Below are positions 1,569 to 19,331 of a stretch of 21,724 bases of DNA, in pieces. The notes beneath the pieces were generated by a model that saw only the letters and a list, made by a program, of their open reading frames with translations, was not told the origin of the DNA and ran no database searches. How positions within the stretch are numbered: position 1 is the stretch's first letter; the number at the start of each line of letters is the position of its first letter. This DNA is from a virus: the IMG/VR virus record IMGVR_UViG_3300042321_001208, positions 1 through 21,724 of that record. One strand, given 5' to 3'. The translations under genes and the position numbers were made by a program.

Positions 1569-3670
1569 TGGTCGAGGACAACGGGATGCAGCTGGGCGGT
1601 GACGCCCCTCTCGATCCGCAGACGAAGCAGGAGAAGCTCGATCCTGATTCGCCGCTGCGTCCGATTGCCAAGGCGTGGCTGGGGAAGCTCTCTGCTGCGC
1701 GGAAGGCGAAGGCCACGTTCGACGCCGACGCCAAAGAGGCCATGGGCTTCTTTGACGGGGCTGGCGTGTGGTCGCTGCTGAACAACACCGGCCGCCCTGG
1801 CCTGACGCTGTCCAGCCGCCCGACCCCTGCGCCCGCCTTCAGAATCTCTATCAACCGTGTTTTCGAGGCCGTCAAGCTCATCGGCGCGGTGCTGTACGCC
1901 CGCAATCCGACCCGCACGGTCACGCCGCGGAAGTTCCCCGTCGTGCCACCGGAGATGCTCGGCATCAACCCGCAGGCGTATCAGGTCGACCCGATGACCG
2001 GGCAGCCGACTCCCGACCCGCAGGTCGACATGTACGTCCAGACCTCCCAGGCCGTCGGCCTTCAGGAGGAGAAGAAGAAGCTCCAGGCCCAGCTGCTGGA
2101 AGGCTACTTGAACTACTCGCCGGTCGAACTTGATTTGAAGACCAACGCCAAGCGCGCCATTGACGAGGGGATCATCAAGGGCGCCGGGGTGCTGTGGACT
2201 GAAGCCGTCTCAGTGGACAACGTGCCGCCGGCCCAGCCGACGATGCTTGTCGGTTCGTTCCACGACTCAGTGGACAACCTGCTGCTCGACCCCGACGCGC
2301 AGGTGATTCAGGAGATTCAGTGGTGCGCCCGTCGGTGCATCCTGCCCATCGATCAGGTCGCCGCAATGTTTGACCTGTCCCGCGACGACCTCAAGCCCAA
2401 CTTGGAGTCGTACTCCTCCACGGGCCGGCAGAGCGAGGACACGCACAACAACCGGCAGCAGGGGCAGAAGCAGCGCACGGGGAAGACAAACGACCTCGTG
2501 ACGTTCTGGAAGATTTGGTCGAAGTGCGGATTCGGCGACCGGCTGAAGGGCGCCAAGAAGGAAGACCGCGGCCTCTTCGATCCGCTGGGCGACTACTGCT
2601 ATCTCGTCGTCAGCGAGGGGGTGGAGTTCCCGCTGAACATCCCGCCGTCCGTGCTGAAGGAGCAGCCCGACGAGGATGGCCTGCCCGGCTCCCTGCGAGC
2701 CCGCGCTGCGTGGCCGATCCCGTTCTGGGCCGCCAACTCGCAGGGCTGGCCGTTCAGCATGTGGGCGCCGAACGTCAAGCCAGGAGCCCTGTGGCCGATT
2801 TCTTACGTCAAGCCCGGGATCGGGGAGCTTCGCTTCCTCCAGTGGGCGCTGTCCTTCCTTATGCAGCGCATCGCCATTTCCTGCGAGACGATGATCGGCG
2901 TTTCCAAGGCGGCCGACCAAGACCTGAAGCAGCAGCTGCTCGCCCCGTCCGAGAACGGCTTCAAGATCGTGGAACTTGCCGAAGCACTCGGCCGCAGCGT
3001 CGGCGACGTGATCTCGGTGTTCCAGCATCCGAACGTCTCAACTGACCTCTGGCAGATCATCGCCGCCGTCAGCGACCTCTTCGACAAGCGGATCGGGTTG
3101 ACCGAGCTTGTGTACGGCCAAACCAAGGCGTCGATGCGCAGTGCCAGCGAGGCTAACGCCAAGCAGGGCAACCTCCAGATTAGGCCAGACGATCTGGCTA
3201 ACAGCGTGGAGGACTGGATGGGCCAAGCAGCAGAGAAGGAAGCCCTTGCCGCCCGATGGCTGCTCCAGCCCCAGGACGTGGCGCCGATACTCGGGCCTCT
3301 CGGCGCAGAGGCTTGGCGGATGCACATGTCCGCGCAGGACGGCGACCCGACTGGCTCCATCGCGCGGGAGTTCGAGTACCGCATCGAGTCTGGCTCGGCC
3401 CGGCGCATTAACAAAGACGCGCGCATCGATCAGATGAACCAAGCCCTTCAGGTGCTCGGCCCCGCCCTGCAAGGCCAAGCCGCTCAAGGCAACGTCGGCC
3501 CTTGGAACGCTCTCATCTCCGACTGGGCTGCCGCCAACGACCTAGACGCCTCGAACTATCTCTTAGCTCCGCCTCCGCCCCCGCCGCCGGCTCCGCCCGC
3601 TGGTGCTCCTCCTTCACCGCCGGGCGACGAAGCCGCGGCGGGGGCCCCTTCTCCGCCGCCAGCTGCCTGA
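1565..3670 (+). CDS. Phage portal protein
   Basis: The portal is the dodecameric ring at the unique capsid vertex through which DNA enters and leaves and to which terminase and the neck dock. This 701-residue protein lies one small gene after the terminase and has the size of podovirus-type portals. Seen: an alpha-helical N-terminal region, a central region of the kind found in these portals (segments NLLLDPDAQ and IQWCARRCILPIDQVAAMF), a hydrophobic mid segment around RFLQWALSFLMQRIAIS, then TELVYGQTKASMRSASEANAK near the C-terminal crown. The last 34 residues (about 668-701) are almost only Pro, Ala, Gly and Ser, an unusual flexible tail. The start is ATGATG at 1565/1568; I use the first ATG, which overlaps the preceding stop. 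Assignment rests on position, length and pattern recognition, not a database search. Confidence 0.83.
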   Translation: MMVEDNGMQLGGDAPLDPQTKQEKLDPDSPLRPIAKAWLGKLSAARKAKATFDADAKEAMGFFDGAGVWSLLNNTGRPGLTLSSRPTPAPAFRISINRVFEAVKLIGAVLYARNPTRTVTPRKFPVVPPEMLGINPQAYQVDPMTGQPTPDPQVDMYVQTSQAVGLQEEKKKLQAQLLEGYLNYSPVELDLKTNAKRAIDEGIIKGAGVLWTEAVSVDNVPPAQPTMLVGSFHDSVDNLLLDPDAQVIQEIQWCARRCILPIDQVAAMFDLSRDDLKPNLESYSSTGRQSEDTHNNRQQGQKQRTGKTNDLVTFWKIWSKCGFGDRLKGAKKEDRGLFDPLGDYCYLVVSEGVEFPLNIPPSVLKEQPDEDGLPGSLRARAAWPIPFWAANSQGWPFSMWAPNVKPGALWPISYVKPGIGELRFLQWALSFLMQRIAISCETMIGVSKAADQDLKQQLLAPSENGFKIVELAEALGRSVGDVISVFQHPNVSTDLWQIIAAVSDLFDKRIGLTELVYGQTKASMRSASEANAKQGNLQIRPDDLANSVEDWMGQAAEKEALAARWLLQPQDVAPILGPLGAEAWRMHMSAQDGDPTGSIAREFEYRIESGSARRINKDARIDQMNQALQVLGPALQGQAAQGNVGPWNALISDWAAANDLDASNYLLAPPPPPPPAPPAGAPPSPPGDEAAAGAPSPPPAA

Positions 3671-3676
3671 CGACTG

Positions 3677-4375
3677 ATGCCCAGGACGGCACTCACCGCC
3701 GAGCAGAAAGAGGCTGCGCGCGCGCGCAAGCGGGAGTGCCAGCGTGCCTACTACGCTGCCAACCGGGAGCGCGTCCTGAAGAGGATGCGAGACCAGTACG
3801 CCGCCGCGCCCGAGGGCAAGCAGGCTTATCGGGCTGCGACGGCCGATGCCCGAAGCGCCTACCACGCGGCCCGGTATAGCGAGAGGCGTGAGGAGTACGC
3901 GAAGAAAAACAGGGCTTATCGAGCGGCAAACAAAGAGGCTATTGCGGCCCGCAAGAAAGAGCGCTATTGGCGCAAGCGCGACGACATTCTCGCCAAGAAG
4001 CGGGAGTATCAGGCGGCCAACCGCGACAAGCTGCGGGAGAAGTGCCGGCAGTACAGAGCAGCCAACCCAGAGGCTGATCGGGCGCGAAAGCTGCAAACGA
4101 CCTTCTGCCTGCACCCTGCGCAATATGACGCCATGGAAGAGGGCCAGGGCGGGTGCGCGATCTGCGGCAAGCCTTGCAAGTCTGGTAGGCGTCTTGCCGT
4201 TGATCACGATCACGCCAACGGCTTTGTCAGGGGTCTCTTGTGCACCCTTTGCAACACCGGCCTCGGGAAGTTCCAAGACTCCCCTGAGCTACTTGAGAAG
4301 GCCGCAGCCTACCTGCGGGCCGGCGGCACTCAAGCGTTCGACATCGTGACATTCGCCCAGGAGATGGCCCCATGA
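3677..4375 (+). CDS. Endonuclease VII-like (HNH/His-Me finger) nuclease
   Basis: The C-terminal part (about residues 140-215) matches the recombination endonuclease VII family (T4 gp49 type), which cleaves branched DNA such as Holliday junctions and can help clear DNA for packaging. Seen: zinc ligands CAIC (C160, C163) and CTLC (C189, C192), the catalytic segment AVDHDH (175-179) and the following N193, as in the family. The N-terminal 135 residues are very basic and carry about seven copies of a Tyr-x-Ala-Ala-x-like unit (YYAANRE, YRAANKE, YQAANRD, YRAANPE and variants), probably a long DNA-binding helix. The gene follows the portal by six bases with no clear ribosome site and overlaps the next gene by ATGA. 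It could be a free-standing mobile nuclease, but the endonuclease VII architecture next to packaging genes fits a resolvase role. Confidence 0.85.
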   Translation: MPRTALTAEQKEAARARKRECQRAYYAANRERVLKRMRDQYAAAPEGKQAYRAATADARSAYHAARYSERREEYAKKNRAYRAANKEAIAARKKERYWRKRDDILAKKREYQAANRDKLREKCRQYRAANPEADRARKLQTTFCLHPAQYDAMEEGQGGCAICGKPCKSGRRLAVDHDHANGFVRGLLCTLCNTGLGKFQDSPELLEKAAAYLRAGGTQAFDIVTFAQEMAP

Positions 4376-5001
4376 GCATCGTATCCCGCATCCTCGCAGC
4401 CGCTGGCCTGACTCGTGCGGACGTGCCCGTCGAGATACCGGAGCCGCTCCCGATGCCCGAGCCGGTCGAGGTGCTCCCGTTCGAGGTGCGCCGCCTGGAT
4501 GAGGATGCCAAGCAGCGCTACCGCAACGCGATGGCAGCCGGGTACGGCGAGCCGTTCGCGATCATGGTCGCATGCCAGATCGCCCCAGGCACTATGGGCG
4601 TGGATCGCACGTTCCAAGAGGGGCACCTCGACGGCAACTGGATGGATCGGCTCCCCAAGCGGCAGGCCCAGCGCCTCCTGCGGGACGCCAAGCGGGCAGG
4701 CATTAACACGGCGGGCCGGTTCTACATGAGCGGAATCGCGGACAAGCGAGGCGGCGGCGATCCCGAGGCGTGGGTTTCCAGCCGGGACGACGTGCTCCGG
4801 GTCGCCAAGAAGCGCCGGCTCCAGCTGCGCGGGACGATCAACTACGAGCCGCCGGAGGGGGCTCCGGTAAAGCGGGTCGACATGGCCCCGCGGCTGGTGA
4901 AGGAGCTAACCAAGAAGGAAATGGCCGCCAACCCCGGGATGAAGCGCCGGGATGCGGTCGAGGCCGTGAAGAAGCGGCACGCCCTGAAGCGCAAGCTCTA
5001 G
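4372..5001 (+). CDS. Conserved-looking phage protein of unknown function
   Basis: This 209-residue protein begins four bases inside the nuclease gene. Seen: a proline/glutamate-rich N-terminus (residues 18-36, PVEIPEPLPMPEPVEVLPFE), a central domain with NTAGRFYMSGIADKRGGGDPEAWVSSRDDVLRVAKKRRL in two recognisable parts, and a very basic C-terminus ending in KKRHALKRKL. The central 'GRFYxSGxAD...DPxAWV...DVLRVAKxR' pattern resembles small conserved proteins I recall from other tailed phages, but I know of no established function. There is no signal peptide and no transmembrane segment. The basic tail suggests nucleic-acid or capsid contact (inference). It closes the first gene block; the following 77 bases hold a leader element. 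Confidence 0.75.
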   Translation: MSIVSRILAAAGLTRADVPVEIPEPLPMPEPVEVLPFEVRRLDEDAKQRYRNAMAAGYGEPFAIMVACQIAPGTMGVDRTFQEGHLDGNWMDRLPKRQAQRLLRDAKRAGINTAGRFYMSGIADKRGGGDPEAWVSSRDDVLRVAKKRRLQLRGTINYEPPEGAPVKRVDMAPRLVKELTKKEMAANPGMKRRDAVEAVKKRHALKRKL

Positions 5002-5078
5002 GCCCTCCCGGGCCGCTGCTGGTTTCGGCCTGCCCCGGGCCACAAACCCAGTAGCACCGCCGTCCCCCGGGAGGCCCC
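5002..5078 (+). promoter_or_regulatory. Leader region with conserved GGCCACAAACCC element
   Basis: This 77-base gap is the longest break in the first 12 kb. It contains GGCCACAAACCC at 5038-5049, a 12-base string that recurs exactly at 19816-19827 before another gene block. In both places a GGAGGCC-like ribosome site and ATGG follow. CCCGGG occurs at about 5008, 5035 and 5066, so several alternative stems can form, and the downstream copy overlaps the ribosome site of the next gene. A leader or processing hairpin, or a phage promoter, are the main options; the sequence alone cannot decide. Confidence 0.4.
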
Positions 5079-5393
5079 ATGGCACGCTTTGAGCGCCTGA
5101 ATTCGCACTACAAGATCAAGCTCTCCGCCGACCCGGCCGAGGCCCAGCGGCTCCCGTTCGGGGCCGTGGCTGGCGCCATGCTCTTCATTCTGGAGGGGTC
5201 GGGCACCATCGTCTGGCACGCCGCCTACGACGTGAACGGCGACACGTTCCCGGCCTACGACGCTGACGGCAAGCCGGCCGAGACGGCTGTCTCGGAGGGC
5301 AACTCCTTCGACGTTCCGGCCGCGCTCTTCGCCTGTCCGTTCATCATCCCGACCGGCGTCGATGGGGAGGCCGTCATCGCGGTCAGCAGCTGA
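5079..5393 (+). CDS. Small beta-rich phage protein, unknown (possible virion component)
   Basis: This 104-residue protein has a good Shine-Dalgarno sequence (ggagg at 5070-5074) ahead of its ATG. It starts basic (ARFERLNSHYKIKL) and then alternates short hydrophobic strands with loops (AMLFILEGSGTIVWHAAYDV, EAVIAVSS), suggesting a small beta-sandwich. There is no signal peptide. It is the first gene after the leader element and overlaps the next small gene by TGATG, so it likely opens the tail-fibre operon. A structural or connector role is plausible from position, but I recognise no family. Confidence 0.7.
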   Translation: MARFERLNSHYKIKLSADPAEAQRLPFGAVAGAMLFILEGSGTIVWHAAYDVNGDTFPAYDADGKPAETAVSEGNSFDVPAALFACPFIIPTGVDGEAVIAVSS

Positions 5394-7052: not shown

Positions 7053-7733
7053 ATGCCCGCCCCTACTCGACCCGCTCCGGTCACGGTCGTCCCTGAGTCC
7101 ACTCGCTTTGCGAAGGGGATCTCGGGCGTGTACTCGGACGTTGAAATTGACGCACTGCTTGCAGACGTTGCGGTTGGCGACGTTGACCTGACGGGATACT
7201 CCAAGACCGAAGAACTGCCGATTGTCTATGAGCAGGACGCGGAGCCTGTCGGCAAGAACGGCGACCTGTGGCTCGGCCCGGAGGTTGCTCGCGTTGCCGC
7301 GCCCGTTACGCAGCCGGTCATTGAGGGTCAGCCGCAAACGAAGTCCCTGACCGAGCCAGAGGTTCGCGAGATCGTCCGCACGATGATCGCTGGTGGGAAG
7401 ACCCCACCACCTGATTTCGATTGGACGCCGCTCGTCGTCGTCAAGGGCACGGGCCTGATCGAAGCCAAACAGACCAACGGCGTTCTCCTCCTGCGTGGAG
7501 AACTGGTTTTCACCTACTCGTCTAACGGAACCTTCACCACCGTTCGCACTCTCCCGGCCTCGCTGCCGAAGCCGCTGGTGAATTGCAGTGCGGTGGTCAC
7601 GGGGAAGGAAAACGGACTCTCCTTTAAGTTCGTTTCGGTCACTTTGACCACTTCTGGCGAACTCAACGTAGTGGCGAGTGGCGGCAAATTTACCCACGTC
7701 TCCTTCGACGGGATGATCGCCTATGTGTGCTAG
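7053..7733 (+). CDS. Tail fibre/adhesin (paralogue 3)
   Basis: This 226-residue protein is preceded by a tgagga ribosome site and overlaps the next gene by 11 bases. Seen: VDLTGYSKTEEL (about 44-55), the 'VDL[ST]GY.[TK]K' motif that recurs in the long fibre at 7723; KNGDLWLGP (about 68-76); and a predicted helix LTEPEVREIVRTMIAGG. From PPPDFDWTPL (about residue 118) runs a beta-rich C-terminal domain similar to those of genes 5555 and 7723, with LRGELVF and THVSFDGMIAYV near the end. There is no collagen tract in this copy. It is likely one of a set of alternative or co-assembled receptor-binding fibres. Confidence 0.72.
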   Translation: MPAPTRPAPVTVVPESTRFAKGISGVYSDVEIDALLADVAVGDVDLTGYSKTEELPIVYEQDAEPVGKNGDLWLGPEVARVAAPVTQPVIEGQPQTKSLTEPEVREIVRTMIAGGKTPPPDFDWTPLVVVKGTGLIEAKQTNGVLLLRGELVFTYSSNGTFTTVRTLPASLPKPLVNCSAVVTGKENGLSFKFVSVTLTTSGELNVVASGGKFTHVSFDGMIAYVC

Positions 7734-9600
7734 ACAGCTTTACGTCAAGTCGAACGGTCAGTGGGTTGCTGCGCTCGGCGGCGGCACGGCGGTCGCTGAC
7801 GGCCTTGCGACAGAGCAGTTCGTCACCGACGCCATCGCGGCCATCCCGGCTGCCGATCTGGCGCAGTACGTCACGATCACCGACCTGAACGACGCCCTCG
7901 CCGGGATTCCCGCCAACGCCATCGCAGTCCACGAAGGCGTGCCCCCGCAGCCATCCGCCCCGATCCCGCAGGCGCTGGAGGATGCGTTCGCGGACTACGA
8001 GGACGGCCTGCACTTCTTTAAGGGCGCCGGTGCCCTGGTGACCCTGGTTCGCCAGCAATACCAGACCACCATCGTCATCAACGGCGCCAACAAGTCCGTA
8101 GCCAAGATCGTCAAGAGCGAGGCGGGGCTGCCCACCCCGCAAAACCCGTCCCTGCTTGTCCAGCAAGAGCCTGACGGCAAGTGGATGAAGTTGACCTCCG
8201 ACAAGCTCGACCAGCCGTTTGGCCCGCCGCAGATGGTGGACATCTTCGCGCTGACCGGCGGCACGGTCGATCTCTCCGGCTACTACACCAAGCCTGAAGT
8301 CGATGCGGCCATCGCCAGTGCTGCGACCGGCGGCACGGTAGACCTGTCGAGCTATGCCCTACTGGATAGCGTTTCGCAGGACATCACCGCCAATCTGATG
8401 AAGGCCCAGAGCTTCGTCTTCACCAAGTCTCAGACCTCGCTGGGCTTCGCCCGTTTCCCCGAGTACCCCAACGGCAAGCTGGGCATCGAGATCGGCGGCC
8501 CCGGCGGGGAACTCCAGTTCCTCGCCTATGTCTCTGACCTGTCGGCCTACGCCAAGCAGCAAGACAACAAGCAGAACCTGCTCGCCAAGGTAGTGACGGC
8601 AGAGGGCTACGGGTTCGGTGATGCCAGCGAGCCGCGAGTCGCCATCACCTACACAGACACGGGCGAGGGCTACGGTGAGCGGCTGGTGCTCGCAACCGGG
8701 GCATCCATCGACTACGTCGTGATGAAGACCGACCTCGATGAACTGAACGCCCTCCTGCCTCGCATCGAGAAGCTGGAGTCCAAGGCGGCGCCGACAGTCG
8801 ATCTCTCCGGCTACGTCACGTCGGTGGACGCCGAAGCTCGGTATGAAACCCTGGCGTCGGGCAATCTCCTGCGCGGACAGATGCAGGCGGTCTTCGACTC
8901 GATCTACACCCGCGTCGAGTCCGACGCCCGATACGCGGAGAAGGCAAAGACCTACACGAAGACCGAGTGCGACGGCAAGTTCCTCACGCTTGTGGACATC
9001 GATCAGTTCGCCTACCGGACTGACGTTTACACGCAGAAGCAGTGCGACGACCGCTTCATCCGAATCGACCAAGCGTTCAGCAAGACCGACTTCGACAACC
9101 AGATGGCGTTGATGCTGTACAGCAGGAAGCAGATTGATGACCGGATTGCGGCCATCAACCCGCTTGGCTCACCGTCGATCAACAATCCGGCTCTGGCCGA
9201 CTTTAAGAAGTCGGTGCTGGACGAGGTGAAGTTGATGCTTGTGGGTGGTACGAAAATGCCGCCGCCCGATATTGATTGGACATGGATGGTGCGCATGGAT
9301 GGGGCGAGGGAGTCTGTCTCTACCGAGATTCAGGCAAGGATGATCGGTGGGTTCATTGAACTCAAGGGCACCCTGTCATTCGGCGCTGGCAGCGGCTCGT
9401 GGGTGCCGCTGCGACTTCCCCCACAGTTCCCGATGGCGGAACTTGATGCGAGCTATCCGCTTGCTATGCGGCTTGTGGGCACAGCGGTGACATACGGGTT
9501 CTGCTCGGTGAGCAGCAAGAGCCGAGACATCTCTTGCAGTCCCGGCGCACGATCAAGCGAGGCGACATTCTCGGGCATTCGATGGAAGGCGGCGTACTGA
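7723..9600 (+). CDS. Long tail fibre protein with YTKxExD-type repeats (paralogue 4)
   Basis: At 625 residues this is the longest fibre in the cluster. The head QLYVKSNGQWVAALGGG is a variant of the W-x-G-x-x-W motif. Along the shaft are VDLSGY (182), VDLSSY (206) and VDLSGY (359), then YTKTECDGKF (411) and YTQKQCDDRF (436), FSKTDFDNQM and YSRKQIDDRI, which are typical trimeric tail-fibre shaft units. The C-terminal domain from PPPDIDWTWM (about 514) to FSGIRWKAAY is the third member of the shared tip family. An exact 18-base repeat at 8266-8283 and 8797-8814 marks two shaft units. The ATG at 7723 lies in the end of the upstream gene. Likely the main host-recognition fibre, by size (inference). 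Confidence 0.8.
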   Translation: MCARQLYVKSNGQWVAALGGGTAVADGLATEQFVTDAIAAIPAADLAQYVTITDLNDALAGIPANAIAVHEGVPPQPSAPIPQALEDAFADYEDGLHFFKGAGALVTLVRQQYQTTIVINGANKSVAKIVKSEAGLPTPQNPSLLVQQEPDGKWMKLTSDKLDQPFGPPQMVDIFALTGGTVDLSGYYTKPEVDAAIASAATGGTVDLSSYALLDSVSQDITANLMKAQSFVFTKSQTSLGFARFPEYPNGKLGIEIGGPGGELQFLAYVSDLSAYAKQQDNKQNLLAKVVTAEGYGFGDASEPRVAITYTDTGEGYGERLVLATGASIDYVVMKTDLDELNALLPRIEKLESKAAPTVDLSGYVTSVDAEARYETLASGNLLRGQMQAVFDSIYTRVESDARYAEKAKTYTKTECDGKFLTLVDIDQFAYRTDVYTQKQCDDRFIRIDQAFSKTDFDNQMALMLYSRKQIDDRIAAINPLGSPSINNPALADFKKSVLDEVKLMLVGGTKMPPPDIDWTWMVRMDGARESVSTEIQARMIGGFIELKGTLSFGAGSGSWVPLRLPPQFPMAELDASYPLAMRLVGTAVTYGFCSVSSKSRDISCSPGARSSEATFSGIRWKAAY

Positions 9601-9622
9601 GATGAACGCACCCACCCAGGAC

Positions 9623-9630
9623 AGAGGAGA
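9623..9630 (+). promoter_or_regulatory. Shine-Dalgarno site that decides the start of the secreted protein
   Basis: The purine string agaggaga lies four bases before the ATG at 9635, whereas the in-frame ATG at 9602 has no such site. Starting at 9635 also places a classic signal peptide exactly at the N-terminus. Confidence 0.65.
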
Positions 9631-9634
9631 TTCC

Positions 9635-10327
9635 ATGAAGCTCCAGAAAGCCGCAGCAGTGCTGTTCGCATTCGTCCTGTCCCTTGCAGGGGGCGAGGGC
9701 CGGGCCCACGCAGGCACCATCGATGTCTTCCGATTCGACTTTGAAAACGCAAGCGCCGGGGCGCTGACCGCACAGGCCAGCTATCTCTACGACGGGGTGA
9801 GCGCGACGTGGAACACCCCCAACAAAGGGATCGAGAACCTGGGGTCGCCGCTGGGGAATGCCGGGCTGATCCAGTATTTCAGCACCTCGACCTACCAGAG
9901 CATCACGTTCACCACGGCCACCGCCCTGGACAGCATCAGCCTGTCTTTCACCTATCAGGGGAATACCAACCAATACCCCACCTTCCCGTCCTATCAAGTG
10001 AGCGCCCTTCTTGATGGGAGTTCACTTGGGACGTTCACCAATAGCGAATCGAATGTCCCTTTTACCGTGACGCTGGATGGGCCGGGACTACTGGAAGCGG
10101 GCAGCCATACGATCCAGTGGATTGCTCCGACCTTCACGGAGGGGGTCAACAGCGGCACTGAATACATGGCTTTGGACAACGTCGTCCTGACCGCCGAAGC
10201 TCCGGTGGCCGCCGTACCCGAGATCGACCCGGCGTCGACAGGCTCGGTGCTGGCGATGCTGGCTGGAGTGCTGGGCTATATCGAGAAGCGCCGCCAGCGG
10301 GCGGGAGGGAAGCAATGGCGAGCCTGA
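9635..10327 (+). CDS. Secreted beta-rich protein with PEP-CTERM-type C-terminal sorting signal
   Basis: With the start at 9635 the protein is 230 residues. Residues 1-26 form a classic Sec signal peptide: MKLQK, a hydrophobic core AAAVLFAFVLSLAGG, and likely cleavage after AHA. The body (27-190) is rich in Ser, Thr and Gly beta strands and looks like a carbohydrate-binding or jelly-roll sandwich. The C-terminus is tripartite: VPEIDP (about 194-199), a short hydrophobic helix GSVLAMLAGVLGYI, then the basic cluster EKRRQR. This is the form of PEP-CTERM signals, which are recognised by exosortase for cell-surface or matrix delivery in Gram-negative-type bacteria. I recall the PEIDP version from planctomycetes. 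No exosortase is in the window, so it would use the host's. It sits between two fibre genes and overlaps the next start by 13 bases. The function could be surface blocking of a receptor (inference). Confidence 0.75.
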   Translation: MKLQKAAAVLFAFVLSLAGGEGRAHAGTIDVFRFDFENASAGALTAQASYLYDGVSATWNTPNKGIENLGSPLGNAGLIQYFSTSTYQSITFTTATALDSISLSFTYQGNTNQYPTFPSYQVSALLDGSSLGTFTNSESNVPFTVTLDGPGLLEAGSHTIQWIAPTFTEGVNSGTEYMALDNVVLTAEAPVAAVPEIDPASTGSVLAMLAGVLGYIEKRRQRAGGKQWRA

Positions 10328-10545
10328 GCTATTGGGACGGTGCCCGGTGGGCGCCGATCACGTCCGCGGGAACTGGCGCTGGCCCGCAGGGGCCAGCTGG
10401 CGCCGACGGGCAGTCTGTCTCAGTGTTTGTTCAAGGCACGCAGCCGGTCGCGAAGCGCGAGGGCGATGTCTGGATCGATGACGGGTCGCCGCGAGTGAGG
10501 CACATATCAGAACTGGCCGAAGTGAAGACCATCAGTGACATCTAA
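10315..10545 (+). CDS. Short collagen-like fibre protein (paralogue 5)
   Basis: This 76-residue protein consists of family modules only: the head LSYWDGARWAPIT, a short Gly-X-Y tract (GPQGPAGADG), and the segment VAKREGDVWIDDG, the counterpart of GDLWLxP in its neighbours. It ends after a short charged segment (ELAEVKTISDI), so it has no tip domain. The ribosome site gggaggg (10303-10309) lies within the preceding gene. It may be a minimal fibre base or adapter, or a remnant left after loss of a C-terminal domain. The intact short reading frame and its ribosome site favour a real gene. Confidence 0.65.
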   Translation: MASLSYWDGARWAPITSAGTGAGPQGPAGADGQSVSVFVQGTQPVAKREGDVWIDDGSPRVRHISELAEVKTISDI

Positions 10546-10559
10546 CGAAAGGGACTGTC

Positions 10560-11393
10560 ATGGCTGACGTGAGGATTTGGACGGGAACGGAGTGGATCAG
10601 CATCGTCGGGCCGCAGGGCCCCGCGGGCGCGGACGGTGCGGACGGCGCCGACGGTGCAGCAGGCGCCGACGGCACGAACGTATCTGTCGAGGTGGGCACG
10701 GTCACGACCGGAGCGCCGAACACTCAGGTGTCGGTGACTGACGTGTCGGCCGACCCGACCAAGGTCGTGCTCGCGTTCTCGATCCCGGCAGGCGCGCCGG
10801 GCGCAGACGGTGCGGACGGTGCTGATGGCGCCGACGGCGCCCCGGGCGCGGACGGCCAGGACGGCAAGGACGGCGTCGACGGGAAAGACGGCAGCGGCGT
10901 GACGATCCAGCCGCCCTCGGCAACGTGGCCGCCAGCTGGCACACCGACCGACGGCTCGATGTACATCGTCCCCGATCCGGTTCCCGCCGGCTATCCGGCC
11001 GGCTCGAACCCCGGAGACGGTCTCGTCTACGCGGGCGGCAGCTACACCAACGTCGGCCCGATCCGTGGCCCGAAGGGTGACACGGGTGCCGACGGCGCGG
11101 CTGGCGCCGACGGCGTGGCGGGCGCGGACGGTGCGGACGGCGCGCCGGGTGCGGCTGCCACCGTGATGGCGGGGTCGGTGACGCTCGGTGCTGTCGGCTC
11201 GACGCCGGTCGTGACCAACTCGGGTACGACCGATGCGGCCGTGTTCGACTTCACTCTCCCGGCCGCCAAGGACGGGGTGGACGGCGCCGACGGCGCAGAC
11301 GGCCAGGACGGCGAGAACGCCGAGGTCTACAAGCAGCTGGACACTCCGACGGCGCAGCGCGTCGGCGCCCTCTGGCTGGTGATGGCCCCGTAG
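10560..11393 (+). CDS. Collagen-like tail fibre protein (paralogue 6)
   Basis: This 277-residue protein has the head VRIWTGTEWISIVG, then four Gly-X-Y tracts (residues about 17-38, 78-112, 170-198 and 238-252) rich in Gly-Ala-Asp. These are separated by two copies of a beta module (about 41-77 and 201-237) of the pattern V-x-x-G-[TS]-V-T-x-G...V-x-[VL]-x-F-[ST]-[IL]-P, which is common between collagen tracts in phage fibres. It ends with QRVGALWLVMAP, a terminal copy of the recurrent G-x-LW motif. Acidic Gly-X-Asp tracts form stable triple helices in phage and bacterial collagen-like proteins (known). There is a clear ribosome site (aaaggga, 10547-10553). Because it lacks a large globular tip, it is likely a shaft or spacer fibre. 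Confidence 0.8.
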   Translation: MADVRIWTGTEWISIVGPQGPAGADGADGADGAAGADGTNVSVEVGTVTTGAPNTQVSVTDVSADPTKVVLAFSIPAGAPGADGADGADGADGAPGADGQDGKDGVDGKDGSGVTIQPPSATWPPAGTPTDGSMYIVPDPVPAGYPAGSNPGDGLVYAGGSYTNVGPIRGPKGDTGADGAAGADGVAGADGADGAPGAAATVMAGSVTLGAVGSTPVVTNSGTTDAAVFDFTLPAAKDGVDGADGADGQDGENAEVYKQLDTPTAQRVGALWLVMAP

Positions 11394-16618: not shown

Positions 16619-17463
16619 TGGGAGCCACGACTCCTGACCTTCGAGGCGGTGTGTTCCAGCAGGCGCTGGTGGACGGCGGAGTGAACCCTGCCGCCGTGAG
16701 CGCCGCCACCTCCGCAGCGTTCCACTGCGCCACGCCCCGCCGCTGGCGTGGGCCGACGACGTTGGACTACACCTCTCCGGCGCTGCGCCTCGTGACGCCC
16801 AGCCTGCGGAAGTACCAGTTCCCCAACTTCGACTTCCAGACAAGCGAGGGCGAGCGCCGCGGGAGGATCGACCCGTCGGGCAGCGGGCCGGAGGAAGAGG
16901 AGATTCCCGTCCCGCTGCCGGAGCCGTACACCGCGCGCCCCGACCTTGAGCAGTCGCAGCCAGAGGGCGACAGCGGCGACGGGCAGTACTTCGCCGGCCG
17001 GTACATCAAAATCAAGCACAACACCATCTCGGTGCTCGCATCCCGCACGGGCGTTGCGATCCTCGACAGCGACCGGATCGTAGGCGGCAGCATCACCGTC
17101 GCCGCCAAGCCGCCGGCAGACAAGTACATCTCCGTGGACAAGGCGGGCGACTTCATCGACCGCGAGTGGAATCTCACGTTCCGAAAGACTCCGCGCTCGA
17201 TAAAGGTCGTCACGGGCCTGGAGGTGGACGCCGCTCGGCGGTGCCTCGTGGTGAAGAAGGTCTCCATCGACGCTTGGCTCAGTGAGTCGCAGTCGAACAC
17301 TGACGCCGAGATACCGTTCGAGCGGGTGACGCCAGTCACGAACGGCCGCGTCGGCGGCGGCTTGGACTTCCTTGGCCCAGCCGTGTACTACCTCGGCGCG
17401 GCGCCCGAGGGCGAAGGCACGGTTCTCTTCACAATCCCGCTTGCCGACTGCGAGGCTAAATAA
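16618..17463 (+). CDS. Phage structural-region protein, unknown (281 residues)
   Basis: This protein overlaps both neighbours by one base (TGATG at its start, TAATG at its end). The N-terminal half is loop-rich, with an acidic-proline stretch (GPEEEEIPVPLPEPYTARP). The C-terminal half (about 125-281) alternates beta strands: GRYIKIKHNTISVLASRTGVAIL, KVVTGLEVDAARRCLVVKKVSI in parts, and AVYYLGAAPEGEGTVLFTIPL. No signal peptide or membrane segment. Position between the nozzle-like and Cys-rich genes suggests a tail-associated protein. I recognise no family. Confidence 0.65.
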   Translation: MGATTPDLRGGVFQQALVDGGVNPAAVSAATSAAFHCATPRRWRGPTTLDYTSPALRLVTPSLRKYQFPNFDFQTSEGERRGRIDPSGSGPEEEEIPVPLPEPYTARPDLEQSQPEGDSGDGQYFAGRYIKIKHNTISVLASRTGVAILDSDRIVGGSITVAAKPPADKYISVDKAGDFIDREWNLTFRKTPRSIKVVTGLEVDAARRCLVVKKVSIDAWLSESQSNTDAEIPFERVTPVTNGRVGGGLDFLGPAVYYLGAAPEGEGTVLFTIPLADCEAK

Positions 17464-19331
17464 TGAGCCTCATGCGCGGGGTCGGCGGAATCTTGAGGGC
17501 GGGGGGGGCGCTCGCCAGATTTGCCCAGGCGTGCGTCGACAAGTGCTGCAAGAAGTGGTACTGCCACACGGACTACAGCTGCGACAACGACCCCGCGGGG
17601 GCGTTGGGTCAATACGACGACCTCGCGACCTGCATGCGTGCCTGCGTGGAAAAGCCGAAGTGGTACTGCCATTCCGACTACAGCTGCGACAACGAACCAA
17701 TAGACGCGCTCGGCATCTATGACACCGCGGAAGAGTGCTACGACAACTGCCTGAAAGACTACGGCATCTACTGCTGCTACAAGAGCTACGACTTCTCGAA
17801 GGGGTCTGAGTGCGTCCGCAGCGAGTGCGCCGATCCCGGCCTCACGCGATCCGGGCCCTACGAGGACGACGCCCTGTGCAAGGCTGGGTGTGGGGACAAG
17901 TACTACTGCGTGGCGAGCAAGACCGACCCGAACGGCTACGAGTGCGTCACCACCATCGTCGGCTACACGCCCATCGCTGGGCCGTTCATCACCGTCGAGC
18001 AGTGCACTGACGCCTGCGACCCGCTGAAGATCAAGTACTGGTGTATCGACAACAAGAAGTGTCAGGTCACCGCGGAGGAGGGGCCGCCGTTTGAGTGCTC
18101 GTTCGGGGCGTTCTGCGAGGAGTACGACACGTTTAACGACTGCATCGTCAACTGCATGCGCGAGAAGTGGTACTGCGGCACGCTCGGCGACGAGTGCCAG
18201 CAGCTGCCTGACCCTCCCTTTCCGGGCGCGCAGGGGTACGGCTCCAAGTCCGCGTGCGACGAGGAGTGCGACAACTACTACTGCTGCTGGGTCTCGCAGG
18301 GCGCGCCGGAGATGGGCTCGTACTGCCAAAAGGCGGAGTGCGATCCCGGGTTCGAGCGATCCGGCCCGCACGACGGCAGCGCCGCCTGCGCCCGCGAGTG
18401 CGAGAAAATCAAGTGCTGGTCGTACAACGACCCCGATACTCCGTACCGCACGTTGAAGGTGTGCCAGGAGGACGCGCCGCAGGGCGAGGATGTCCGCGAG
18501 GTGAGCGGCCCCTACGGGACTGAGGCAGAATGCAAGCGGGTCTGCGACAAACCAATCTATAAGTGGTACTGCGAAAACGATGGCACGGGGAAGAAGTGCA
18601 AGAAGTGCTGCGCCGGCGGTAACTGCGCCGACGACGACGAGCCGTGCCAGGGCGGCGTGACCTTCTACGAGACCGAGAAGCTGTGTAAGGAGGCGTGCAA
18701 TCCCCCTCCGAGCTATCGGTGGTTCTGCGACCGCGGTCGGTGCAGGCGGTGCGTTGCTTCCGGCGAAGTCAAACCAGGGGATGTGCGTTGCCCGGCTGGC
18801 CTCCCCCTCTACGAAGACCCCAACGCATGCGGCGAGGAGTGCAAGGAGCCTGTATACAGGTGGTGGTGCAAAAACGGCGAATGCAAATTTTGCCTTCTCG
18901 ATGGAAACGGCGCTCCCGGGGATGTTCTGTGCTCGGCTGTTTTAACCGACACCTTTTTCATAAACGAAACAACTTGCAAGCAAGTTTGCTCGGCAGGAAA
19001 TGGCTGGGTGTGCGCTAACGGGGAATGCCTCCCTTGCTGGAACGACATGGCTCCGAACACGCCGCCTAACCCCGGCGGCATGCCAAACTGCTCTGAACTG
19101 CCGAACCAAGGCTTTGCCTACACCGGCCTCCGATTGTGCCAGGAGGCGTGCTACTACGAGCGCCCATGCTGGGTTGCCGTCAGCGGCGGGTCGTGCATCG
19201 AGACTCTAGTCACCGTCTCGGAGGCGTTTCCCGAATGCCCGGACGGCACCCCGAGCGGCACGAGCAACACCGAGGCGGAGTGCCTTGGCGCCGTTAGCCC
19301 TCGATCCGACGACGAGAACCCGCTCCCCTAA
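17463..19331 (+). CDS. Giant Cys-rich 13-repeat protein, undescribed
   Basis: This 622-residue protein has about 71 cysteines by my count (over 11%). After a 30-residue glycine-rich, weakly hydrophobic N-terminus with no classical signal peptide come 13 units beginning near residues 31, 66, 102, 146, 191, 235, 271, 317, 367, 419, 466, 514 and 568. Each unit has the form [KR]-[WY]-[YWF]-C, a Cys around the middle, G-x-[FY], then C-x-x-x-C at its end; later units add a C-x-x-C after the start. Units 1 and 2 are nearly identical (KWYCH.DYSCDN), so duplication is ongoing. The end (SDDENPLP) is acidic. It may be a disulfide-bonded or metal-binding surface or tail protein. An eight-G run at 17501-17508 near the start could make it switchable. 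I do not recognise the repeat family. Confidence 0.75.
   Translation: MSLMRGVGGILRAGGALARFAQACVDKCCKKWYCHTDYSCDNDPAGALGQYDDLATCMRACVEKPKWYCHSDYSCDNEPIDALGIYDTAEECYDNCLKDYGIYCCYKSYDFSKGSECVRSECADPGLTRSGPYEDDALCKAGCGDKYYCVASKTDPNGYECVTTIVGYTPIAGPFITVEQCTDACDPLKIKYWCIDNKKCQVTAEEGPPFECSFGAFCEEYDTFNDCIVNCMREKWYCGTLGDECQQLPDPPFPGAQGYGSKSACDEECDNYYCCWVSQGAPEMGSYCQKAECDPGFERSGPHDGSAACARECEKIKCWSYNDPDTPYRTLKVCQEDAPQGEDVREVSGPYGTEAECKRVCDKPIYKWYCENDGTGKKCKKCCAGGNCADDDEPCQGGVTFYETEKLCKEACNPPPSYRWFCDRGRCRRCVASGEVKPGDVRCPAGLPLYEDPNACGEECKEPVYRWWCKNGECKFCLLDGNGAPGDVLCSAVLTDTFFINETTCKQVCSAGNGWVCANGECLPCWNDMAPNTPPNPGGMPNCSELPNQGFAYTGLRLCQEACYYERPCWVAVSGGSCIETLVTVSEAFPECPDGTPSGTSNTEAECLGAVSPRSDDENPLP
17553..19283 (+). 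repeat. Array of 13 Cys-rich protein repeats
   Basis: Units are about 35-54 residues, with conserved aromatic-Cys at the start and C-x-x-x-C at the end, and variable loops between. Units 1 (17553) and 2 (17658) share long identical DNA runs, whereas units 8-13 are more diverged. Unit 11 (18858-19001) is visibly less GC-rich than its neighbours. Confidence 0.8.

Follow-up and report, generated by a model that had tools for sequence, protein, structure and literature searches.

The window analysed here, by which we mean the whole stretch of DNA, is a linear IMG/VR virus contig of 21.7 kb with genes for TerL, a portal, endonuclease VII, collagen-like proteins and an SU10-type adaptor, and with several fibre genes in a row. 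Its tail module also includes a 622-aa protein (17463-19331), extremely rich in cysteine and built of repeated WYC...C units, which matched no family. Among the fibre genes, an open frame on the plus strand (9635..10327) encodes an apparently secreted, PEP-CTERM-like protein of 230 aa, hereafter P0001, with homologues in two other viruses. A ribosome-binding site, AGGAG (9625..9629, plus strand), lies 5 nt before the ATG at 9635; an in-frame ATG further upstream, at 9602, is the less likely start. On the same strand, the gene is preceded by a fibre gene (7723..9600) and followed by a structural gene (10315..10545; product MASLSYWDG...), the conserved downstream neighbour in relatives, and by a gene for a collagen-like fibre protein with GPQGPAG-type repeats (10560..11393), also syntenic in relatives. 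Neither a promoter signal nor a sense-strand terminator was seen around the P0001 gene. An earlier note on this DNA had described the gene as translationally coupled among the fibre genes; this applies downstream, where it ends 13 bp inside the next gene (ATG 10315), but not upstream, where its start comes 34 nt after the fibre stop.

Architecture of P0001

P0001 begins with a signal peptide (residues 1-26; 9635..9712, plus strand), MKLQKAAAVLFAFVLSLAGGEGRAHA, with the likely cut before GT (AHA/GT). By inspection it has n-, h- and c-regions and an AxA site, as in PEP-CTERM proteins; a helix is predicted at residues 2-19, and the L002 homologue has a counterpart (loci are referred to by number). 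The mature body (residues 27-193; 9713..10213, plus strand) has an S+T+N content of 30.6%, against 15.3% in the other window proteins, and a K+R content of 1.2%, against 9.8%; cysteine is absent from both the signal peptide and the body. Such a composition, with raised S/T/N and low Cys and basic content, matches the published PEP-CTERM signature, which is S/T/N-rich with few Cys and basic residues (PMC1569441).

The C-terminal tail (residues 194-230; 10214..10324, plus strand), VPEIDPASTGSVLAMLAGVLGYIEKRRQRAGGKQWRA, consists of VPEIDP, a hydrophobic helix predicted at residues 199-223 and the basic cluster EKRRQR. This is the order of a PEP-CTERM tail, and the basic cluster lies at most about 10 residues from the C-terminus. 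The architecture and the frame coordinates agree with the earlier description of a signal peptide, a beta-rich body and then this tail, except that EKRRQR is not at the very C-terminus: eight residues follow it, some of whose codons lie in the overlap with the next gene. The 19-residue hydropathy peak of P0001 (1.45) is at the signal peptide, and the 15-residue peak of the tail is 1.72; a hydropathy threshold alone does not mark the tail helix as strongly transmembrane, so that its assignment rests on architecture and structure prediction.

Unimolecular spanins likewise combine a signal at one end with a C-terminal membrane helix and a beta-rich ectodomain, and on its overall topology P0001 might be taken for a lysis factor of this kind. 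However, a protein free of cysteine has no lipobox, the gene is accessory and absent from most relatives, and no recognisable lysis genes adjoin it; we reject this idea, to which we give a minimal probability.

An AlphaFold2 model of the trimmed body predicts 11 strands with moderate confidence (pLDDT 70.4, pTM 0.70, only three sequences behind the prediction). Its best structural match is the carbohydrate-binding module (CBM) TmCBM27 (1oh4; VIA Z 11.6 over 141 residues, 2.9 Å), CBM22 (Z about 10.5) and CBM36 (Z 9.6) also match, and other jelly rolls, for example meprin MAM domains, are within 2 Z of the best. A model of full-length P0001 likewise resembled CBMs. On this pLDDT 70 model the body shares the beta-sandwich fold of these CBM families at Z 9.6-11.6, but identity to them is just 7-15%, with no family match at sequence level; a sequence search of solved structures gave chance matches only, mostly to antibody chains. 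We consider that the body resembles a CBM, a likeness of fold and no proof of sugar binding, and from the model it may bind sugars. Among viral structures with sandwiches like this one, many are of tail proteins, which, together with the position of P0001 among fibre genes, would suit an accessory adsorption protein carried on the virion tail. A signal peptide combined with a C-terminal membrane helix, a very low basic content and a composition unlike that of the other window proteins make such a role extremely improbable.

The C-terminal tail as a probable sorting signal

The earlier note called the tail a PEP-CTERM-type sorting signal and proposed comparing the C-terminus with TIGR02595-type models. 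No curated model in NCBIfam or Pfam scored above its cut-off with either whole P0001 or the isolated tail. TIGR02595/PF07589 matched neither, and the best match of the tail was TIGR04161 (VPEID-CTERM) at 11.1 bits, with a cut-off of 33. The same model gave 14.1 bits with the tail of the L003 homologue and 24.4-24.5 bits with proteins of locus L094, all below 33; a TIGR02595 search of the window record had no match, and neither did its controls. Because the curated cut-offs are not reached, we do not assign P0001 to the PEP-CTERM family. The note had held that its reading would fall if the tail matched no PEP-CTERM model or if the host had no exosortase; formally, half of this has come about.

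An expression for motif, helix and basic cluster fitted 14 of 3146 ORFs (at least 100 aa, from 89 loci), and 10 of the 14 are copies of the P0001 family, more than chance would give. A DNA scan of IMG/VR for VPEIDPxxxGS returned 13 stretches, and true C-terminal tails were confined to the window virus, the L003 virus (also L096) and L094; the remaining stretches were internal or spurious frames. Beyond the known loci, a broader pattern, PEIDP...GS[AV]L, found only internal or unrelated frames. By curated models, then, the tail is not a sorting signal, but by architecture and company it probably is one. What stands of the earlier claim is the architecture of an exosortase substrate, and P0001 likely works like a PEP-CTERM protein.

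Homologues and an unrelated parallel

The body of P0001 has homologues in two other viruses, L002 and L003, at 60-73% identity. With dN about 0.2 and dS 1.35-2.0, the latter close to saturation, dN/dS is about 0.17, which indicates purifying selection on the body. VPEIDP persists in both the window virus and the L003 virus (L003 tail, VPEIDPNSFGSVLALVFGSLGMLERRRRS); the L002 tail, AEVPEFGGSPIGALIAALGWLAARKKI, has a related PE motif that has lost the IDP part (AEVPEFGG). Homologues at the same position in related phages, which the earlier note proposed to look for, were found in part: in L002 the gene is behind the fibre, but in the L003 virus it lies at the edge of the contig, ahead of the genes for scaffold and head, and within the contig no fibre gene precedes it.

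Also near head genes, and conserved across the phage group, is a secreted CAP-domain protein (L009:1671-2216, L003:7669-8178; Pfam PF00188 in L003), likely another envelope-directed phage product. A further conserved, secreted-looking protein near the head genes (L003:5957-6748) has an HEMNH motif, possibly metallopeptidase-like, and no family match.

In L094, a phage unrelated to that of the window, the terminase (Pfam GpA nuclease, 2e-28; phrog_38, 5e-38) is followed by two secreted proteins (L094:3532-4236 and L094:4346-5035) with VPEIDP tails. Their bodies are unrelated, one being a repeat protein and the other a choice-of-anchor R domain (41.6 bits, against a cut-off of 30). Over the final 35 residues the two are 97% identical, and this stretch matches TIGR04161 at 2e-5. 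L118 matches L094 at 94% identity through TerL but has no counterpart of the L094 stretch 3214-5160 with both genes; about 560 other bases stand in its place, after which the alignment resumes. Three unrelated bodies thus far carry this class of tail, in two phage groups that are themselves unrelated. The P0001 homologues with PEP-type tails and the L094 pair missing from L118 point to phage-borne accessory genes with a modular sorting-type tail.

A simpler function for the tail would be that of a mere membrane anchor, with uncut P0001 remaining in the inner membrane and facing the periplasm, for example for exclusion acting against DNA entry. This would agree with the lack of a PEP-CTERM model above cut-off and with the plain small transmembrane proteins that relatives carry in the same genomic slot. 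Against it are the retention of VPEIDP or a related PE motif in all three viruses, the nearly identical 35-aa tail on two unrelated L094 bodies with its TIGR04161 match, and the PEP-CTERM-like composition of P0001, and we regard an anchor alone as improbable.

A variable slot behind the fibre gene

The P0001 gene occupies a variable post-fibre slot (9601..10314, plus strand), bordered by the conserved C-terminal part of the fibre gene. A portal-based search gave 80 related viral loci. DNA identity to the window, 77-84%, stops at the fibre stop codon (9598-9604) in L011, L012, L020, L025, L033, L042 and L052; only in L002 does similarity run on through the P0001 gene, to 10170. Counted after de-duplication of loci, the slot is empty in L020, L025, L030, L033, L034, L042, L079 and L082, and has an additional fibre-like gene in L036, L037 and L069. 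In the window it holds P0001. L002 has a P0001-type protein there together with a DUF1559 pseudopilin, L052/L053 and L139/L140 have only DUF1559, and small membrane proteins fill the slot in L011, L012, L013/L014 and L074/L076, with relatives of these proteins after a fibre-like gene in L016/L017. All the non-fibre occupants are envelope-directed. The small membrane proteins (L011:16108-16373, L012:10347-10642, L074:15066-15239, L013:15304-15471) are candidate exclusion proteins, and several of them form one family, with a TM segment followed by an E.R...KWLDE-like end. The DUF1559 pseudopilin-like genes (L002:8660-9625, L052:12582-13565, L139:3953-4963) encode a prepilin N-terminus, lie directly behind a fibre or PEP-CTERM-like gene, and have products 95-96% identical between phages. 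Since the DUF1559 genes of L139 and L002 are 96% identical and the preceding fibre ends 80%, DUF1559 was probably exchanged recently.

P0001 could also be a recently captured host gene that brings the phage no benefit, as its host-like tail class and the clearly host-derived DUF1559 genes in the same slot might suggest. Divergent homologues in three viruses, the dN/dS ratio and the clean overlap with the next gene disfavour this explanation, which we consider very unlikely. The earlier statement that this is not a random host gene at an edge is borne out: three viruses carry the family, two of them exactly after the fibre stop, and L094 is an unrelated parallel. GenBank phages yielded no relative of P0001 (two matches at E 0.6-1, that is, chance) and no match to its tail, nor any relative of the window portal, major head protein or DUF1559, and only remote matches to TerL. 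Plasmids held no relative of P0001 or of its tail.

Host and exosortase

DUF1559 has been described as a family seemingly confined to Planctomycetes; Planctopirus limnophila has 68 paralogues (PMC10632474). When the phage DUF1559 was compared with 72,556 plasmids, only four records matched, all of them planctomycete, over 93-99% of its length. A planctomycete host is indicated for L002 and L052 by DUF1559 and for the window phage by its kinship with them; judged from sequence, the host phylum of the window phage is probably Planctomycetota. A portal profile search of genome contigs for a host gave no match, and the window tRNAs provided no clue. The DUF1559 profile had one N-terminal prepilin match in genome contigs, in a Brachymonas MAG, which was not accepted as host evidence because such a scan needs near-exact peptides.

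Exosortases and their substrates occur in this phylum. For Rhodopirellula baltica, 12 PEP-CTERM proteins are reported together with an EpsH homologue (PMC1569441). In Aquisphaera giovannonii, plasmid pOJF2_1 encodes an exosortase (2e-58) along with EpsI and a polysaccharide cluster (L110:30504-31487), as well as a PEP-CTERM protein of the VPEPSSLAL type (L111:2257-2982). No exosortase was found in the 16 phage records searched.

Discussion

The observation of P0001 is confirmed as real and unusual, and through this protein the phage may remodel or shield the host surface during infection. We favour, at a probability of about 0.45, a fibre-linked envelope protein, sorted by the host exosortase, that masks or remodels the surface polysaccharide recognised by the fibre, with superinfection exclusion or fewer progeny losses as the result. 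The gene would be accessory cargo that a phage, probably one of planctomycetes, carries in its post-fibre slot. Following the PEP-CTERM model, P0001 would be exported by Sec, held transiently in the inner membrane by its C-terminal helix, and passed by host exosortase-type machinery, which we infer would process it, to the cell envelope or the exopolysaccharide. There the CBM-like body may attach to polysaccharide on the surface and hide or alter the structure seen by the fibre, which would exclude superinfecting phages or reduce the progeny lost to already infected cells and debris. A block of re-adsorption is suggested by the fibre-linked slot and by analogy with Llp of phage T5. The overall claim of the earlier note, that the phage places a protein on its host through exosortase, is partly supported, by phage cargo, a substrate-like tail and a probable planctomycete host, but not by a curated model.

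Masking of the surface or blocking of the receptor is the most likely role, at about one in three to one in two, and its main rival is a more general remodelling of the surface. With the same localisation, P0001 might work in favour of the phage by changing how the host surface behaves, in aggregation, biofilm matrix, attachment or resistance to grazing, with no exclusion of other phages. In bacteria, PEP-CTERM proteins of the host's own are linked to exopolysaccharide systems (PMC1569441), the predicted fold is CBM-like, the L094 repeat and choice-of-anchor R proteins have no obvious receptor-blocking role, and the L003 homologue is not beside a fibre. The exact insertion behind the fibre in two viruses, in a slot that otherwise holds envelope-directed genes such as those for small membrane proteins, speaks against it, and we think it rather unlikely. 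Returning to the shielding role, it can be extended, quite tentatively, to planctomycete phages at large, which would encode host-exosortase substrates as fibre-linked shields against re-adsorption in an exchangeable slot, as a tagged CBM-like protein, or as a pseudopilin or small membrane protein.

No description of phage-encoded exosortase substrates was found in the open-access literature, which is weak evidence of novelty as subscription journals are mostly outside it. If correct, our reading would provide phage-supplied reporters for the exosortase sorting system, whose purpose is poorly known. It would also reveal how an unusual cell surface is dealt with by the phages of planctomycetes, a phylum for which few phages have been studied. 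For exclusion genes, the post-fibre slot offers a definite place to search.

Compared with PEP-CTERM substrates (TIGR02595, PF07589, TIGR04161), P0001 has in common a signal peptide, an S/T/N-rich and Cys-free body, and a tail at the C-terminus with a motif at the periplasmic face, a hydrophobic helix and a basic end; in contrast, it is phage-encoded, scores below every curated cut-off, and belongs to phages in whose searched records no exosortase occurs. In phage T5, the receptor-binding protein gene is followed directly by that of the exclusion lipoprotein Llp; BF23 combines a different receptor-binding protein with an Llp of its own, unrelated to that of T5 (PMC9586334, PMC4728585). The P0001 gene is also directly downstream of a fibre gene in the window and L002, the fibre being assumed to be the receptor binder; unlike Llp and Cor, P0001 has no lipobox cysteine, its beta-sandwich body is larger, it ends in a sorting-type tail, and its part in exclusion is presumptive. 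Phage- or prophage-encoded LPXTG surface proteins of Gram-positive hosts, in which phages use a transpeptidase-type sorting signal of the host, may provide an analogy; P0001 differs from these sortase substrates in its signal, in the enzyme class and in having a host with an outer membrane.
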